Shown piece after piece: positions 46,828-54,880 of a DNA stretch of 64,000 bases. Within the stretch, counting starts at the first letter, position 1. Each line of letters opens with the position of its first letter. The notes beneath the pieces are model-generated. The model was not told where the DNA came from, did not search any database, and was given only the letters and a program-made list of their open reading frames with translations. A program made the translations under genes and the position numbers. Where the stretch lies: NCBI GenBank assembly GCA_039545275.1, contig BCHS01000003.1:558001-622000 (forward strand). Reading direction: 5' to 3'. The stretch is from Pseudomicrostroma phylloplanum (taxonomy: Eukaryota > Basidiomycota > Exobasidiomycetes > Microstromatales).

Positions 46828-49800
46828 TCACGACTGGCCTCGTCCACCTCGTCCTCCCCTGCCTCCTCGTCCAGCGCCACGACTGGGTCCACTGGGCACT
46901 CCGCGGCCTCCACCTCGGCCTCCAGCACCATTCGCAGCCTGCCCACCGTTCATGTTCAGGCTGGCGAGCAAAGGGTTCAGAGAGGCAGCGGCAGCCGCCC
47001 TCTGCTTTGCCTGGTCGACACTCGGTCGCTCCGTACCCGCCGCGACGCGCGAGAAGTGCGTCTCGGGTCGCACCACTGTACCGCCGTTGGCCTGGCCATC
47101 TCGGTTCAGAATGTGCACTGGCGCACCACCGCGAGGGGCAGGAGCAGGATGGAAGAAGCTACTGCCCCTGCCGCTACCGCCACCACGAGTGGAGAGACCC
47201 TGGTATCCTCCACGGCCACCTCCTCTGCCGTGGCCATCGGCTGAGTTGCCATTGGCCTGGATCGGACCAATGGTCCTCTCCAGAGCATTCAGGCTTGCGG
47301 AGCTGTCGACTCCGCTGGCGCCCTTCGTACTGCTGAACTGAGGTTGAGTCAGATTGAGCACTTGTGCGAAGCCGATCGTTGCTCCGCGATGAGCAGAGCA
47401 TCGACCTCCGAGGGTGGTTCCGGCCAGGAAAGGGTTGTCAAAGACGACCTCGACGCTAGTAGAGGTGAGACCGACAACCACACCTCGGGCGCTCATGGGT
47501 ACAGTACCCGTGTCAGAGACTGCGATGACTCGGTCACCCAGCTCGAAGCGTTGAGCTTGCAGACGGTAGGGCGCATGAGCGGGCTTCAGGAGCGCCGTAC
47601 GAGGAATGCCCTTGATGATAGCTCGCTTCACGACGCTCTGGTTCGCTGAGCGAGTGCCAGCAATGCGATCGGTGAAGGCCTCGATGGACGAGATTGCGTC
47701 TTTGCCCAACTGCTCTGCGTAGAGTGGTACCGCCTCCAGGTCTCTGACGCCCTTCTCCTTGATCCACTGCTTCAGCTGTGCCGTCCTCTGAGGAGCAGCA
47801 GATTCACCAAAGAACTGCACCGCCTCTCTCAAGTCAGCCTTCTGGTTGGCCATAAGCGCCTGAGGCACTTCTGGGAACTTGTTCTTGTACTCGTTGATGA
47901 GATCAATGGCCTTGTCGGAGAACTCCCAGCCAGCGTTGTTCTTGCGACTGTAGCCCAAGACCTTGTTGCCCTTTGCCTCGAACTTGAGATTCAGGCCAAC
48001 ATTGACTCGACCTCCCTCGGGCGTCTCGATGAGCATGGAGCTAGTCAGCTTGCTCAGGGCCAACCCAGACAGACTGCACTTCTTGGAGACGACGAAGGAA
48101 GGGTAGTAAGCCTCTCGAGATCGCTGAGCTACCAGCTGGTGAAGAGCTTGATTCTCCTTGGCCTGGTTCAGGAAGAAGGCAATCTCGATGGCGAGCTGGT
48201 TGCCGGTACTTCCCACGACGGCTGCAGGCGAGCCGTATGCATGATCGCCGAGGAAGAACACCTTGGCCTTCTCGGGGAACTCCTTGTGGAGGGGCAGGGC
48301 GGGGCGCTCGACGAAGCGGTTGTCCTCCTTGAAAACGTCGGGCACGCAAGTCTGGATGGCTTGCTCCACCTCCTTGTCAGACGACTCCTCGTAATCCTTG
48401 ACGAAAGAGCCATCTTCGAGTCGCTTCAGGCCCTTGAGAGGCCTGACGTGGAGCAAAACATTGACATCTCCGACTTCCACGGCGAAGCGCTTGCTGTAGT
48501 GATGCTGGATCCGAGAAGCCTTACGCCTCCACGCCCCTTGTGCTTCCGAGGAGTGAGGGTTCTGGATGATCTTCTTCGTATTCCCGACGAGGCCCATCTC
48601 GTATCTGAACAAGCTGTCAGAAACCGCAGTGACCAGACCCTCATTGAGGTAAGGCCAAGAAATAAAAGTTCGCTTGCCCACCATAGTCTCTGCAATGTCT
48701 TGCACTTTGGTGTTCTCGTACGAGTTCTCAACATTGATGACGATACTCTCGCCCTTCGACTCTCCTTGGAAGACACTGACTCCGTGGTAGCCAAGACGAG
48801 CGTAGTGGACCAGCGTCTGGATAGACGGGAAACCGGCATGACCTTGCTTGCCCATCTCAGCGCCTTCAGGCAGACCCTTCACGAGGTGCAGACCATCCAA
48901 GGTAGGCAGATGGAAGACCTCTACCTTGGCCTTGCTGTGAACGATGTCAGGGAAGACTCCAGGAAGAGACGATGGGTAGTATCGCTCCGTCTCGGGGTCA
49001 TACAGGCACTTCCAGCTATCGCCGAATCCGTTGCGGCTCTTCTCTTCCTTGGTCAGCAGGCCAGATCGCTTGTCGAGCGCTTCAAGCAATCGCTTCTCGT
49101 CGATGAAGGGAATCTTGACGACTGCTTCCCAATCCTGCTTCTTGCCGTTCAGGTCGGCCTCGAAATTCGATGGGTAGAAGTCGATGATGGGAGAATTGGG
49201 GTCCGTCATCAGGTCGCGGAACGCAGGAGGGATATGCGTGTTGCTGAGAGCGGGCAAGACACCCATCAATTGGTCGAAGGGTCGGAAAGGCTTGCCGAGC
49301 TTGAAATCGAAAGTCATGTTACCAACGTCCAGAAGATCAGAGATCTTGGGCGCGTAATGGTAGTCGTAGAACCATCCCCAAGATGCCACACCATCGTAGT
49401 AGTAGTGCAAGACCCATTGCAGTCCTTCGACGTATCGGTACGCGAGCTGCTGCACTGCTTCCTTGTCCTTGTAGTCGATCTCCAGCTTCTCTTTGTAGTA
49501 GCTCCTCTTCCACTCGTACATCTTTTGATCCACCATCGCCTCATACTCCTCTTCCTCGTCCTTCTCTTCAGCCGATGCCTTGTGCGTGCCATTGCTGGTC
49601 TCGACCTTGGCCCCATCATACTTCTTGAGGACTCGAACAATAGCAGCCTCACTTTCTGCTGCGGCCACCTCATCCTCATCCCACAGGCCTTGACTTGAAG
49701 AGATCGCAATAGCTGGCCGGTCCTCGACTGGGTCGTACTCGTCAAAGCTCAAGCCCAGACCGAGATTGCGACACAGATCAGAGACAAAGTCCTTGTCTTC

Positions 49801-51223
49801 GTCACTAAGATCGGTCGAGAGGAAGAGGTCTCTCGAGGCACTGTGCGGATTGACGCGAAGCTCCTGCACAAACGCCTTGATGGTGTCGTACACGCTCTTC
49901 TGTGCTTCTGACATCAGCACCTGATTCTTCTTGGCACGGACCTTCTCCATGGCCTTGCTGTTCTTCTTTTGTTGATGCTTGCGCATGAAGGTGTCGCCAA
50001 ACTCCTCCTCGAATTGCTGCCTCTCGAACTTCGTTAGCTCTGCGAGGATCAACTGCAACCGATCCACGCGCAAGTTGCCAGATTCGTTCAGGTACCCTCC
50101 CGCCACAGGGAGAACCCTCTTGTAGATATTGAAGAGCAAAGGCAGCGCTCCTTCGTTGATATGCATGCCAGGAAGATGGGGCAGGAAATCGTTACCGACG
50201 AAGATGTTGAGGAGAATAAAGTCATCGATGATACGCTCTAAGCTGAACTCGAACGGCAAAACTGAGCGCAGATCCGCAAATTCAAGATTGAGGTACTCTC
50301 GGAAGAGTGATAGATGTAGCAGGAAGAAATTCTGTGACTCGAGTCCTCCACTCTTCTTCTTCTTGGGGCCAAAGCTCACTTCTTCTCGCAGGAGAGCAAA
50401 GTGAGGGTCGTGACTGAGCAGACCCAGCATAATGAGATCGGCATCCAGACCGTAGAGGCAGTGACGAACGTTAGGGTTGTAGCCCGGTTGAGCCTTTGCG
50501 AGTCGGATATACTCCATCACTTTGTGTTCTCCCTCTCCGGGCACATCGTGACCCGACAGAATGATCTCTGGGCCCTGCCATGCCGCGTCTTCGGTGACCT
50601 TCTTGGCGATGAACCACTTCATTTGCTCAGATAGACGAGCCATGAATGGTGTGCCTGAGGTGCAGGAGCATGGGAGCTTACTCTGTAAGCCGCCATACCC
50701 GAGCTCTGTAAGTGGCAACTTTTGCCCCGGCACTCACCTGGTGTGATACAATTCGAATCGAATGCGTCTTCCTCCGGTAGCTCCTCTCCTCTCTGCAAGG
50801 CCTTCTGCTTCAAGTCCTTTGCCTCCTTTGCAGTTCTGAATCTCCTACTTCTCTGCTGATTCATCTTGGCCCTTGGGGCCACTCCATCGACGGCGAGGAA
50901 GAAAAGCTCTCTCGGCTTAATCTTGAGGAAGATGTGTTCGATATACGAAAAGACCGCCAGGAAGATTTCCGTCTCTGTCATTCTGAAATGCACGTCTTCG
51001 TCATTTGGGTGGGAACAATTGTGGATAATGCCGTTCATATCCAGGTAGAGACGGTCGATCTCTGGCACCTTGTTCTCTTCGACCAGCTGACTGATCAGCG
51101 GATAGCGCTCCGACATGGAGCGGAAGAATTTCGGGATACCTGGAAAGAGGAGAGAAGTGAGGATATGAGTGTCTCATGGTACATGAGGGGGTGAGTGGCG
51201 GGAGCGCATTCGTACGTACCCAT
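46828..51223 (-). CDS. XRN1: 5'-3' exoribonuclease 1 (Xrn1/Kem1)
   Basis: Cytoplasmic nuclease that degrades decapped mRNA. Exons are 51220-51223, 50738-51139 and 46828-50654, giving 1,410 residues. Exon 1 is only four coding bases (ATGG), joined to GTATCCCG to give MGIPKFFRSMSERYPLI, the invariant Xrn1 start. The catalytic domain has YLDMNGIIHNCSHPND, AVDGVAPRAKMNQQRSRRFR, SGHDVPGEGEHKVMEYIR and GLDADLIMLGL. The junction of exons 2 and 3 restores CITPGTPFMARL. The Xrn1-type PAZ/KOW and SH3-like middle domains follow. The last 140 residues are an RGG tail that should bind RNA or be methylated. The donor of intron 1 is GTACGT rather than the usual GTGAGT. A 519-codon antisense frame inside it is a shadow. 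Confidence 0.95.
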
Positions 51224-51633
51224 GGCTGTCTATTCCGCAAAAGTAGTTGTAGTTGAAGTGAATGGTAAGGCCAAGGTTGGCGGTCCGCAAGCCTGGCGAA
51301 CAGGTGATCTTTAGGTGACAGGGGAATATACCGCACGAAGGAGCGAAGGTTCGATCCCTACTCTCGATACACGAATCAGACGCTGAGGATGACGAAGTGT
51401 TGGTCAAGTTGGTTGGGTAAGACGGTGGCAGCGATGGTCTTTCGTATGCGTCTGCACACTCGCGCTCGCTGGTGGAGTCGGGCAGGAGCGGAGCTCCAAT
51501 GTTGCAGCTTCCGCTCCGATTCCTCTTCCGTCCAAAATTTGGACCGGACCAAGGGCCTTCCCGTCCTTCCTCGGATACCACCAGTGAGGCAGACCCGAAC
51601 AGCTCTACCTGCCCTTCCATATTTCTCACAGCT
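51224..51633. promoter_or_regulatory. Divergent promoter region XRN1 / NOP16
   Basis: 410 bp between divergent genes. GGTTCGATCCC at 51348-51358 mimics a tRNA B box, but no cloverleaf can be drawn around it. Confidence 0.4.
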
Positions 51634-52632
51634 ATGGCCAACCCAAGACAAAGGAGAAAGACTCGAAGCGGAGCTGCCAACGGGCCTTCGGCTGCTGCTA
51701 AGCGTCACCAGAAGAAGAAGCTCGTGCGCGCGCCCACAGTCAAGGGACCAGAGGCGCTCAAGGACAAGTGGGATGGCAAGAAGACTGTCAGGCAGAAGTG
51801 AGTCTATTTGGCCTCATGACCCCATCGCTGAGGGCTCTTCAATTGATCTAGCTTCCCCGATCCCCTTCTGCAGCTATGCCGCCCTCGGTCTCCTCTCCGA
51901 CCTCAAGCTACGCCCTTCGGGAGGTCTGGCACCAGGCACAGAAGGAGGTGCCTCCCTCACACCCGCTGCCTCCTCCTCCGCAACTGCTTCAGGCAGCGGT
52001 AGCAGCGCCAAGCCAGCCAGAGGTATGGGACGCATCATCCGAGATGCAGATGGAAATGTGGTGGATATCATCGAAGGATCCGAAGAGCCGGAAGACACTC
52101 CTTGGGGGAAGCCATTGAAGAATTGGGAGGATGCGGAAGACGAGGCAGTGGACGAGGAGGAGGAGGAGGAGGAGACAGAAGGGCGAGCAAATGTGACTGC
52201 TGCACGGGAGGAGAGCGAGGTCGTCAAAGGTATGTATCTGCGGTGTAGGACAGTCGCATCGCGTTCCAACTCGATCTCACAGCTCCGTCTCTCTCGTTCA
52301 CGCTCGCAGCATTGCAAGCGGTGCCAGACCCGGGCCCTCTGCTGCGCCACGTCTCTGAGCTCGAGGCGCACTGGCTCCTGTCTCTCGTGAGGAAACACGG
52401 CGAAGATGTGGATGCCATGGCTATGGACAAGAAGCTGAACGAGAATCAAAAGACAAAGGGAGAAATCCGTTCCAGGTAAGTCTGACGGCTGGGGAGCAGG
52501 AGTGCATGTATAGCTCGTAGAGAAACTGATCAGATATCTGTGCTTGTGCTGTTCTTTCTCATCAGGATCAAGCGGGCTGGAGGATTCGAGCCGATTAGGA
52601 CAGCGATCGCTTCTCATGACTCGAGGAAGTGA
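51634..52632 (+). CDS. NOP16: Nop16 ribosome biogenesis protein
   Basis: Nucleolar factor of 60S subunit assembly. Exons are 51634-51797, 51874-52229, 52310-52475 and 52566-52632, giving 250 residues. The basic start MANPRQRRKTRSGAA, DKWDGKKTVRQNYAALGL and the C-terminal block HGEDVDAMAMDKKLNENQKT, then RRIKRAGGF, are the family hallmarks. The middle is an acidic linker (EDEAVDEEEEEEETEG) typical of nucleolar proteins. The four exons close exactly in frame. It converges on the Pdr16-MoaD gene with a gap of about 200 bp. Confidence 0.93.
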
Positions 52633-52828: not shown

Positions 52829-53104
52829 TCATCCGCCGGAAACGGGTGGAATGACAGCAACATCCTCTCCTCCCTTGAGCTGTGTAGCAGCAGTATCCTC
52901 TGCGTCCACCATGACCTGATCCACACTCCAGTTGCTCCTTGCAATGACGTCCATCAGCCTCGCCGGATCCTTGATCCCCTTGCTCTGGTGTATAAGAGCA
53001 GGCACTTCGCTCAGCTTGAGAGGAGTGGCTACGAGGGGAATCTTGATCGAGGATGTACCAGCGGCATCTCGCGCAGCGGCAAAGAAGAGGATGGTGACCT
53101 GCTG
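52829..53104 (-). other. MoaD/MOCS2A (ThiS-family) domain-coding segment
   Basis: Encodes residues 593-683 of the fusion. It begins QQVTILFFAAARDAAG, a first beta strand and helix as in molybdopterin synthase small subunits. It has LKGGEDVAVIPPVSGG at the end, matching the D-E-V-A-x-x-P-P-x-[ST]-G-G terminus of the family. The Gly-Gly is adenylated and thiocarboxylated by an MOCS3-type enzyme in known systems. Confidence 0.85.
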
Positions 53105-54880
53105 TGCGGAGCTCTTGTGGAGTAGTCCACGAGAAGTGGAACTTGCGTTCCTCTTGTGCTTGCCAGTGCTATCGCTAGATTTGCCACGTCCATCGTGATG
53201 CACCATCTTGGAGATGGAGCCAAACAGTCCGCTCCGGCGGTTGGCGTCGCCTTCCTTTCTACCTCTGATGGCAGAGAGAGGCGTATCTGACCTGCTCGGC
53301 GGGTTGGTGGGCGGGTTGCTCGGCCCTTCCGTGCCATTCGTGTGTGCGTCCTCCTCTACTTGATCGAGCCTACCAGCCTTTGCCGAAGTTGGCGCAGCAG
53401 AGGCAGAAGCGGCAGCTGCACCTGCTCCCGTGTCAGCGCTCATACTGAGCGTGCTAAAGGTGCGATCGAGTGGGTCCTGATCAACGCAGCCTGTGGGTGT
53501 CTTGAATGTTTCATTTGTTTCTGACACAGTGCGTGCAAGTGGCTCCAGCGTAGATGATTCAGTTGAAGCCGCAGCGACTGCTGCATCCGCACGGGCATGG
53601 GAGGCTTTCACGGCATCTTGCCTGCTAGTCTGGGCAGGATCGATGTCTAGAATCTGCGGCGGATCGCTAACCTGAGTAGTAGGGGCTTGTGCCGGCTCGC
53701 CGGAATCGGTCCGAGCCAAGCCGCCCATGTCCTCTGCTTCGCTGATGACGTTGGCTACGTCGGTCTTTTGTAGCGCAACAGCTCCGTGAGTATCATTTCC
53801 CCCTCTGAGGACCCACTCAGATGCGCCAATTTCGCTGTTGCATTGCTCCTTGAATCGTTTCAGCATGGCGGCACGTCTCTCCTTGGTCAGCTTCACAAGA
53901 TCGGGCCAGTACTGGTCGTGGTGGTATGTTGGCTCGACTTCACCTCCGTAGTCCGAGCTGAGTTGACTGAGAGGGACTTCTTCTTTGATACCCTCGTCAA
54001 ATTTGCACTTAGACTTCGTGACTGGGTCTATGAAGCTCTGGATGGCGCTCCAGAACGCCTTGAATACCCAGGGCACGTTGATGCAAAGAGCAACTCCAAG
54101 CCTTTCCACGTAGTGATTCTGAAGGATGTACAGCATGAGCTTCGCATTGGCAATACTTGTAGGGTTGCGGCTCCTGTGATCGAAATTGATCAACAGAGCA
54201 AGCTGCTCAACGCCGGGTGGCATGAGGTCGATGCAGCTCTCCAGAATCCACACGGCAAAGCGCATCTGAGTTGGGGATTCTTTCGTGTTGTTGCGATGCG
54301 GGTGCATGTAGTGCAACGGCCGAGCAGAATTGTCGAAGCCCATGACAGTCTCCTTACCACTCTTAGCCTCTCCCTCCACTTCGTCCGGATCGATGGAGTC
54401 CACTCCAAACTCGCGCCTCCATGCAATGGTTTCGGTCAGACGCTTCTTTGCGGCATTGAGATCCCACTTGGTAGCCCTAAGATAGCGCAGCATGCTTTCC
54501 CGAGACAACATCCTCAGCTTCTCCCAGTCTGTGGGTGGCTCCTCTGCTTTCCCATCTTTTGCATTGAGAGACACGGGATAGGTCTTTCGTTCTCTGAAGT
54601 AAACGAGCATCTCCGCCAGCAGCTTCTCTTGGCTGTCAGACAGCTTTGCTGGAGGCTGTGGTCTGCACCCTTCCTCGGGGGCCCTGAAGACTCCCGTGAA
54701 GGCTCGAAGGGATGGGTTCTCTACCGCTGTCTGTTGGGAACCAGTCCTGGATGACGTGCGCTTGACAGCCTTGCCGCCCTCGCCTCCTTTGCCGTTGTAT
54801 CGACTGTACGTCTTTTCGAGGAGACTCGGCCGACCACTCGCTGACGTCTCGCGGGACCGTGTCCTTGTAGTGTTGACCAT
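52829..54880 (-). CDS. Pdr16/Sec14-type lipid-transfer protein fused to a C-terminal MoaD sulfur carrier
   Basis: One uninterrupted frame of 683 residues from ATG 54880 (MVNTTRTRSRET). Residues about 85-350 form a CRAL-TRIO protein of the Pdr16/Pdr17 group: LRYLRATKWDLNAAKKRL, GFDNSARPLHYM, LALLINFDHR, ILQNHYVERLG, FIDPVTKSK and SSDYGGEVEPTYHHDQYWPDL. These proteins move phosphatidylinositol and affect sterol levels and azole tolerance. About 240 low-complexity Ser/Thr/Ala residues follow. The last 91 residues are a complete MoaD/MOCS2A beta-grasp domain ending in VAVIPPVSGG, so the terminal Gly-Gly is free as molybdopterin synthase requires. I know of no characterised protein with this pairing. 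Alternatives are internal initiation at Met MVHHDGRG (53222-53224) or processing. The large-subunit (MoaE) gene is not in the window. Confidence 0.85.
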   Translation of the reverse strand: MVNTTRTRSRETSASGRPSLLEKTYSRYNGKGGEGGKAVKRTSSRTGSQQTAVENPSLRAFTGVFRAPEEGCRPQPPAKLSDSQEKLLAEMLVYFRERKTYPVSLNAKDGKAEEPPTDWEKLRMLSRESMLRYLRATKWDLNAAKKRLTETIAWRREFGVDSIDPDEVEGEAKSGKETVMGFDNSARPLHYMHPHRNNTKESPTQMRFAVWILESCIDLMPPGVEQLALLINFDHRSRNPTSIANAKLMLYILQNHYVERLGVALCINVPWVFKAFWSAIQSFIDPVTKSKCKFDEGIKEEVPLSQLSSDYGGEVEPTYHHDQYWPDLVKLTKERRAAMLKRFKEQCNSEIGASEWVLRGGNDTHGAVALQKTDVANVISEAEDMGGLARTDSGEPAQAPTTQVSDPPQILDIDPAQTSRQDAVKASHARADAAVAAASTESSTLEPLARTVSETNETFKTPTGCVDQDPLDRTFSTLSMSADTGAGAAAASASAAPTSAKAGRLDQVEEDAHTNGTEGPSNPPTNPPSRSDTPLSAIRGRKEGDANRRSGLFGSISKMVHHDGRGKSSDSTGKHKRNASSTSRGLLHKSSAQQVTILFFAAARDAAGTSSIKIPLVATPLKLSEVPALIHQSKGIKDPARLMDVIARSNWSVDQVMVDAEDTAATQLKGGEDVAVIPPVSGG

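Follow-up and report, generated by a model that had tools for sequence, protein, structure and literature searches.

The fusion gene and its parts

The minus strand of a 64,000-nucleotide stretch of the Pseudomicrostroma phylloplanum genome (contig BCHS01000003.1; the whole stretch is called the window here) carries a gene in which a Pdr16-type lipid-transfer protein is joined in frame to MoaD, the small subunit of molybdopterin synthase. The frame runs from an ATG at 54880 to a stop codon at 52829-52831 and encodes 683 amino acids with zero internal stops. A sequence-only reading of the window had proposed that one open frame holds a CRAL-TRIO protein of the Pdr16 group and a complete MoaD, and the frame, the Pfam matches and the matches to solved structures all bear this out. 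The features, in window positions, are as follows.

52829..54880, minus strand: entire fusion gene (Pdr16-type lipid-transfer protein and MoaD); 683 codons and a stop, with no need for an intron
54431..54616, minus strand: CRAL_TRIO_N domain, residues 89-150 (Pfam PF03765, 42.5 bits)
53942..54364, minus strand: CRAL_TRIO lipid-binding domain, residues 173-313 (Pfam PF00650, 129.8 bits)
53105..53794, minus strand: variable linker, residues 363-592 (from conservation, predicted disorder and Met positions)
53189..53230, minus strand: motif GLFGSISKMVHHDG directly before MoaD, residues 551-564 (from the alignment)
52832..53104, minus strand: MoaD domain, residues 593-683
52832..52852, minus strand: C-terminal IPPVSGG with free Gly-Gly, residues 677-683

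Both CRAL_TRIO and ThiS were expected by that reading in the 683-residue protein, and both were matched by Pfam. The CRAL_TRIO match spans profile positions 2-153 of 153. By sequence, the solved structure nearest to the N-terminal part is yeast Pdr16 (E about 4e-60), and the best fold match among solved Sec14 proteins is also yeast Pdr16/Sfh3. The ThiS family (PF02597) covers residues 597-683 over its whole profile (positions 1-76 of 76) with 24.3 bits against a cut-off of 22.5, and the tail alone reaches 29 bits. The MoaD/ThiS protein 6jbz_B is the solved structure nearest to the tail by sequence (E 1.8e-6), and human MOCS2A (5mpo_A) is matched with E 0.0035. In the structure model the CRAL-TRIO part was poor (28 sequences, mean predicted local distance difference test score, pLDDT, 56.3) and only the MoaD part was used, which has the ubiquitin-like beta-grasp fold. 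The earlier boundary of the MoaD part, 53104, corresponds exactly to residue 593, and the predicted free Gly-Gly is intact. The best NCBIfam name for the tail is moaD, with a full-length match of 33.2 bits in the whole protein and 37.1 bits for the tail alone. This score weighs against the assignment, as it stays under the curated cut-off of 66.15, and the name MoaD therefore rests on Pfam, fold, ending and genomic context.

The two domains are connected by a long linker, which is predicted to be disordered from about residue 440 (pLDDT 28-41 across blocks 441-590). Between the window protein and its relative P0002, the linker is 71% identical, the CRAL-TRIO part 95% and the MoaD part 87%. The 230 codons of the linker contain no stop in their own frame and 5 to 12 stops in each of the other five frames, and none of 2000 mononucleotide shuffles stayed open. 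These counts ruled out a linker that is open by chance. In-frame methionines lie at residues 385, 480 and 559, and the last of these belongs to the motif GLFGSISKMVHHDG, which is recognisable in the fusions nearest to the window protein.

Two neighbouring genes were recognised in the window. At 46828-51116 on the minus strand lies a 5'-3' exoribonuclease, matched by five Pfam families of XRN type, with an apparent further exon near 50.7-51.1 kb by eye. The ribosome-biogenesis protein Nop16 is matched in two frames at 51472-52630 on the plus strand, converging on the fusion gene, and its last exon extends to about 52630 by eye.

Distribution and origin of the fusion

A profile made from 12 fusions was searched at E <= 1e-30; scoring was confined to the 7992 candidates with the most words in common, and 90 proteins were returned. 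All three protein searches of this study admitted sequences of 0.55-1.75 times the query length, so that free MoaD lay outside their scope. A C-terminal MoaD is present in 27 of the 90 relatives, and every one of the 27 ends in PVSGG; together with the window protein, 28 of 91 are fused and the ending is found in 28 of 28. Of the 28 fusions, 12 served to build the hidden Markov model that detected MoaD and hence match by construction; the other 16 are independent. When the MoaD part was used as query among proteins of similar total length, 11 proteins were returned from 256 candidates, all of them with CRAL-TRIO and all ending in IPPVSGG. An assembly or base-call error, which the sequence-only reading had named as a possible source of the read-through, was rejected since the same join recurs in many species.

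The named carriers are Jaminaea pallidilutea, J. rosea, Sympodiomycopsis kandeliae, Parajaminaea phylloscopi, Tilletia indica, T. horrida (two proteins), Tilletiopsis washingtonensis, Exobasidium rhododendri and Tilletiaria anomala. They cover five orders of Exobasidiomycetes, namely Microstromatales, Tilletiales, Georgefischeriales, Entylomatales and Exobasidiales (the order of T. horrida was assigned via its genus). Among smut relatives the architecture was thus found in Exobasidiomycetes but not in the sister class Ustilaginomycetes, whose orthologous Pdr16 ends without MoaD. Class membership was checked for Violaceomyces and Testicularia, and we take the remaining genera to be Ustilaginomycetes as well. 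The carrier records are named CRAL-TRIO, phosphatidylinositol transfer protein or hypothetical, or are unnamed; for two metagenome fusions (P0024, P0056) the source gives the label molybdopterin converting factor small subunit, so the tail has already been recognised by annotation pipelines. One smut-type fusion, P0022, comes from a record of the fern Adiantum nelumboides. In the tree its nearest group is that of the Meira row, and it is probably a fungal contamination of that record.

Four Exobasidiomycete rows are without MoaD (P0019, P0026, P0027, P0047), and they are counted neither as losses nor as fused. Three of them, from Microstroma glucosiphilum, Ceraceosorus guamensis and Meira miltonrushii, carry 'partial' in their names and end shortly after the CRAL-TRIO region. 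The metagenome Pdr16 P0026 groups with Tilletia and ends in the linker before MoaD, which may reflect a contig end, an error in the frame or a genuine loss.

A tree of 58 rows was built on the CRAL-TRIO core. In it, 27 unfused rows including all named Ustilaginomycetes form one clade with support 99/95; outside this clade fall the 28 rows from Exobasidiomycetes, of which 24 are fused and 4 have no MoaD. The free tree sets Tilletia beside Ustilaginomycetes, so that two changes of the Exobasidiomycete label are needed. Constraining the 28 Exobasidiomycete rows to one clade was not rejected (approximately unbiased test, p-AU 0.367). On these trees one gain of the fusion would suffice, with or without one loss. 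For the first tree 65 of the 91 proteins were supplied, and the fused fragments P0010, P0063, P0066 and P0068 were dropped due to short CRAL-TRIO coverage; for the second tree 3 far outgroups were removed. The proteins P0055, P0057-P0062, P0064, P0067, P0069, P0075-P0087 and P0089-P0091 stand outside the trees.

T461 and P470 are the sole (nearly) invariant columns of the linker over the 28 fusions, and the rest is poorly conserved. The stretch around T461 aligns with the C-terminal region of unfused orthologues, which suggests that MoaD was appended after the ancestral Pdr16 C-terminus.

No report of a CRAL-TRIO/MoaD fusion, or of the saccharopine-dehydrogenase/MoaE fusion described below, was found among the papers listed in full-text searches of an open-access library without subscription papers and preprints; CRAL-TRIO and molybdopterin were co-mentioned there in one Pochonia expression study, each term once. 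In conclusion, the gene fusion is real and conserved, it is uncharacterised in the literature searched, and it gives a MoaD-type carrier a new partner.

The molybdenum-cofactor pathway in the genome

The whole assembly (17.08 Mb in 20 contigs) was searched for further members of the pathway. No separate MoaD gene was found genome-wide with PF02597 at E <= 0.001, although a six-frame search may miss short exons split by introns, and a query with the Exobasidium MoaD domain at E <= 10 matched the fusion locus alone, with the same blind spot. The related carrier Urm1 is encoded at a separate place on contig C10. A second Sec14/Pdr16-like gene, which is without MoaD, was seen at C15:257131-257679 and shows 42% identity over part of the CRAL-TRIO region.

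The other genes of the pathway are dispersed. MoaC is on C1, MoaE is at a single place on C9, and MoCF_biosynth domains are on C18 and C20. A ThiF gene in two exons lies at C17:168857-169667; its larger part has MoeB-type proteins as best NCBIfam names, partial and under the cut-off. The rhodanese domain after ThiF was unmatched in the unspliced frame and scored 39.3 bits (cut-off 22.2) once one intron was removed by eye, so by its domains this gene has the layout of the activating enzyme (E1) UBA4/MOCS3. The domain order of a gene on C3 (molybdopterin, dimerisation, cytochrome b5, FAD) is that of eukaryotic nitrate reductase; its best NCBIfam matches are sulfite dehydrogenases, under the cut-off, and the examined locus ends at the gene. 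A second Oxidored_molyb gene is on C6. A cell with genes for MoaE, E1 and molybdoenzymes needs MoaD, and from this gene content the fused MoaD most likely does the work of sulfur carrier in the cell.

The sole MoaE of the genome is also part of a longer protein. It forms the C-terminal part of a 763-residue protein (C9:656308-658759) whose N-terminus is a saccharopine-dehydrogenase NADP domain, and the gene is spliced at two GT-AG introns of 79 and 81 bases. MoaE has no start codon of its own: the 186 bases between the parts contain one ATG, which is out of frame, and the nearest in-frame Met upstream of MoaE, residue 433, lies within the oxidoreductase part. The MoaE part retains the HRxG, SPHR and VPxWKxE stretches of the solved MoaE 2wp4_A. 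In PDB and NCBIfam its partner had only weak dehydrogenase matches. Starting from the Pfam family Sacchrp_dh_NADP, we tentatively read the partner as similar to the lipid-droplet protein SCCPDH; for this name PDB and NCBIfam add nothing more than a dehydrogenase-like N-terminus.

A search with the MoaE part returned 5 proteins from 1737 candidates. Microstroma glucosiphilum P0094 shares the saccharopine-dehydrogenase/MoaE join, in a gene model that ends just beyond the first MoaE exon, and Jaminaea pallidilutea P0092 is a 440-residue MoaE without the oxidoreductase. This join was found in two close relatives only, and the MoaD fusion over five orders. In Tilletia horrida P0093, MoaE lies N-terminal to a mitochondrial carrier, possibly as another MoaE fusion or as a merged gene model. 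Of the two remaining proteins, P0095 combines MoaE, ThiF and rhodanese, and P0096 carries MoaD, MoaE and MoaC in one chain. These compact molybdopterin-synthesis fusions are probably bacterial.

Possible function and known systems

We consider it probable that the sole MoaD of this fungus, which is of MOCS2A type, works as a sulfur carrier while it remains the C-terminal domain of a Pdr16/Sfh3-type phosphatidylinositol transfer protein, all in one polypeptide. CRAL-TRIO, the disordered linker and MoaD would be translated as one chain. The free Gly-Gly could then be adenylated and presumably thiocarboxylated by the UBA4/MOCS3-type E1, and the MoaD C-terminus would insert into MoaE and pass sulfur to cyclic pyranopterin monophosphate (cPMP) as an ordinary MoaD does. 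The E1 and MoaE chemistry takes place at the free C-terminus of MoaD (PMC9370521). Since both partners act on this end, an N-terminal load need not interfere. The flexible linker may give MoaD the reach to E1 and MoaE while CRAL-TRIO handles lipid. The CRAL-TRIO part would retain its own lipid role, and its affinity for membranes or lipid droplets may position the carrier.

Both halves of the synthase are joined to proteins with a known or putative lipid-droplet link, which suggests that the enzyme could assemble at a lipid surface. In this arrangement the Pdr16-type protein would tether MoaD and the SCCPDH-like protein would tether MoaE on the same organelle, and the synthase would respond to the lipid or phosphoinositide state; the MoaD tether would apply across Exobasidiomycetes and the MoaE tether in the Microstroma lineage. 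We regard this extension as rather unlikely, and its probability was lowered a little because the name of the MoaE partner lacks backing from PDB and NCBIfam.

Alternatively, as the sequence-only reading had also allowed, one gene may give two products, Pdr16 and a free working MoaD, through an internal promoter or an internal start at Met559, as a device for sharing a transcript similar to human MOCS2. Met559 sits 34 residues ahead of residue 593, and among the 11 fused rows clustering with Jaminaea, Sympodiomycopsis and the window protein in the tree (P0001-P0009, P0013, P0014) all but P0009 have a Met within 50 residues of the domain. Human MOCS2 is described as bicistronic (PMC9370521). 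However, the 80 residues ahead of MoaD contain no Met in 5 of the 28 fusions (P0009, P0010, P0012, P0016, P0066), and the linker is open in the protein models of all 28, which separate products would not need. We thus consider this alternative improbable, to about the same degree as the lipid-surface synthase. A fused chain that is cut in the linker to release free MoaD, so that the join merely couples expression, appears less probable still. Bacterial MoaX, a MoaD-MoaE fusion, needs cutting to work (PMC4326299), the linker here is long and predicted to be disordered, and T461 and P470 stay (nearly) invariant in it. But the cut in MoaX frees an internal Gly-Gly, which is already terminal here, and the linker is poorly conserved apart from these two residues. 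It is very improbable that the MoaD domain has given up the carrier role and become a ubiquitin-like handle which conjugates the lipid-transfer protein to targets, as the genome would then have MoaE and molybdoenzyme genes yet no MoaD.

The usual picture of molybdenum-cofactor synthesis is one of soluble chemistry in which the small carrier is free. If the fused chain works as one polypeptide, it would be a natural example of a sulfur carrier functioning with a 592-residue N-terminal load, and assembly of the cofactor may be linked to a membrane or to a lipid surface. The fusion also offers a connection of membrane lipids with nitrate assimilation that can be tested directly. Perhaps it accounts in part for the ease with which MoaD is missed in these fungi, because the named records carry CRAL-TRIO, phosphatidylinositol transfer or hypothetical labels or no name.

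Compared with known systems, the tail resembles MoaD/MOCS2A/Cnx7/CnxG in its ubiquitin-like fold, its whole ThiS profile and its free Gly-Gly, and the genome likewise encodes MoaE and an E1 of MoeB/rhodanese type. MoaD is usually, though not by definition, a free-standing small protein (solved chains of 81-106 residues), whereas here it is in frame with CRAL-TRIO as the last 91 of 683 residues. The N-terminal part shares CRAL_TRIO_N and CRAL_TRIO with Pdr16/Sfh3, and yeast Pdr16 is its nearest solved match, with phosphatidylinositol transfer putative here; yeast Pdr16 chains (333-360 residues) and the Ustilaginomycetes orthologues are without MoaD. Yeast Pdr16 is placed at lipid droplets and the cell periphery (PMC5748980). 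In MoaX and the Deinococcus MoaD-MoaE fusion, MoaD also lies within a longer chain, and cleavage after the MoaD Gly is required (MoaX, PMC4326299; Deinococcus fusion, PMC8832034). The present fusion is not of this type, in which MoaD and MoaE form one chain cut after Gly-Gly: its partner is a lipid-transfer protein rather than MoaE, MoaD is C-terminal with Gly-Gly already free, and MoaE is on another contig. In human MOCS2 the small subunit is likewise encoded in an unusual arrangement, but it uses two overlapping frames on one mRNA for both subunits of one enzyme (PMC9370521), whereas a single frame with an unrelated partner is found here.
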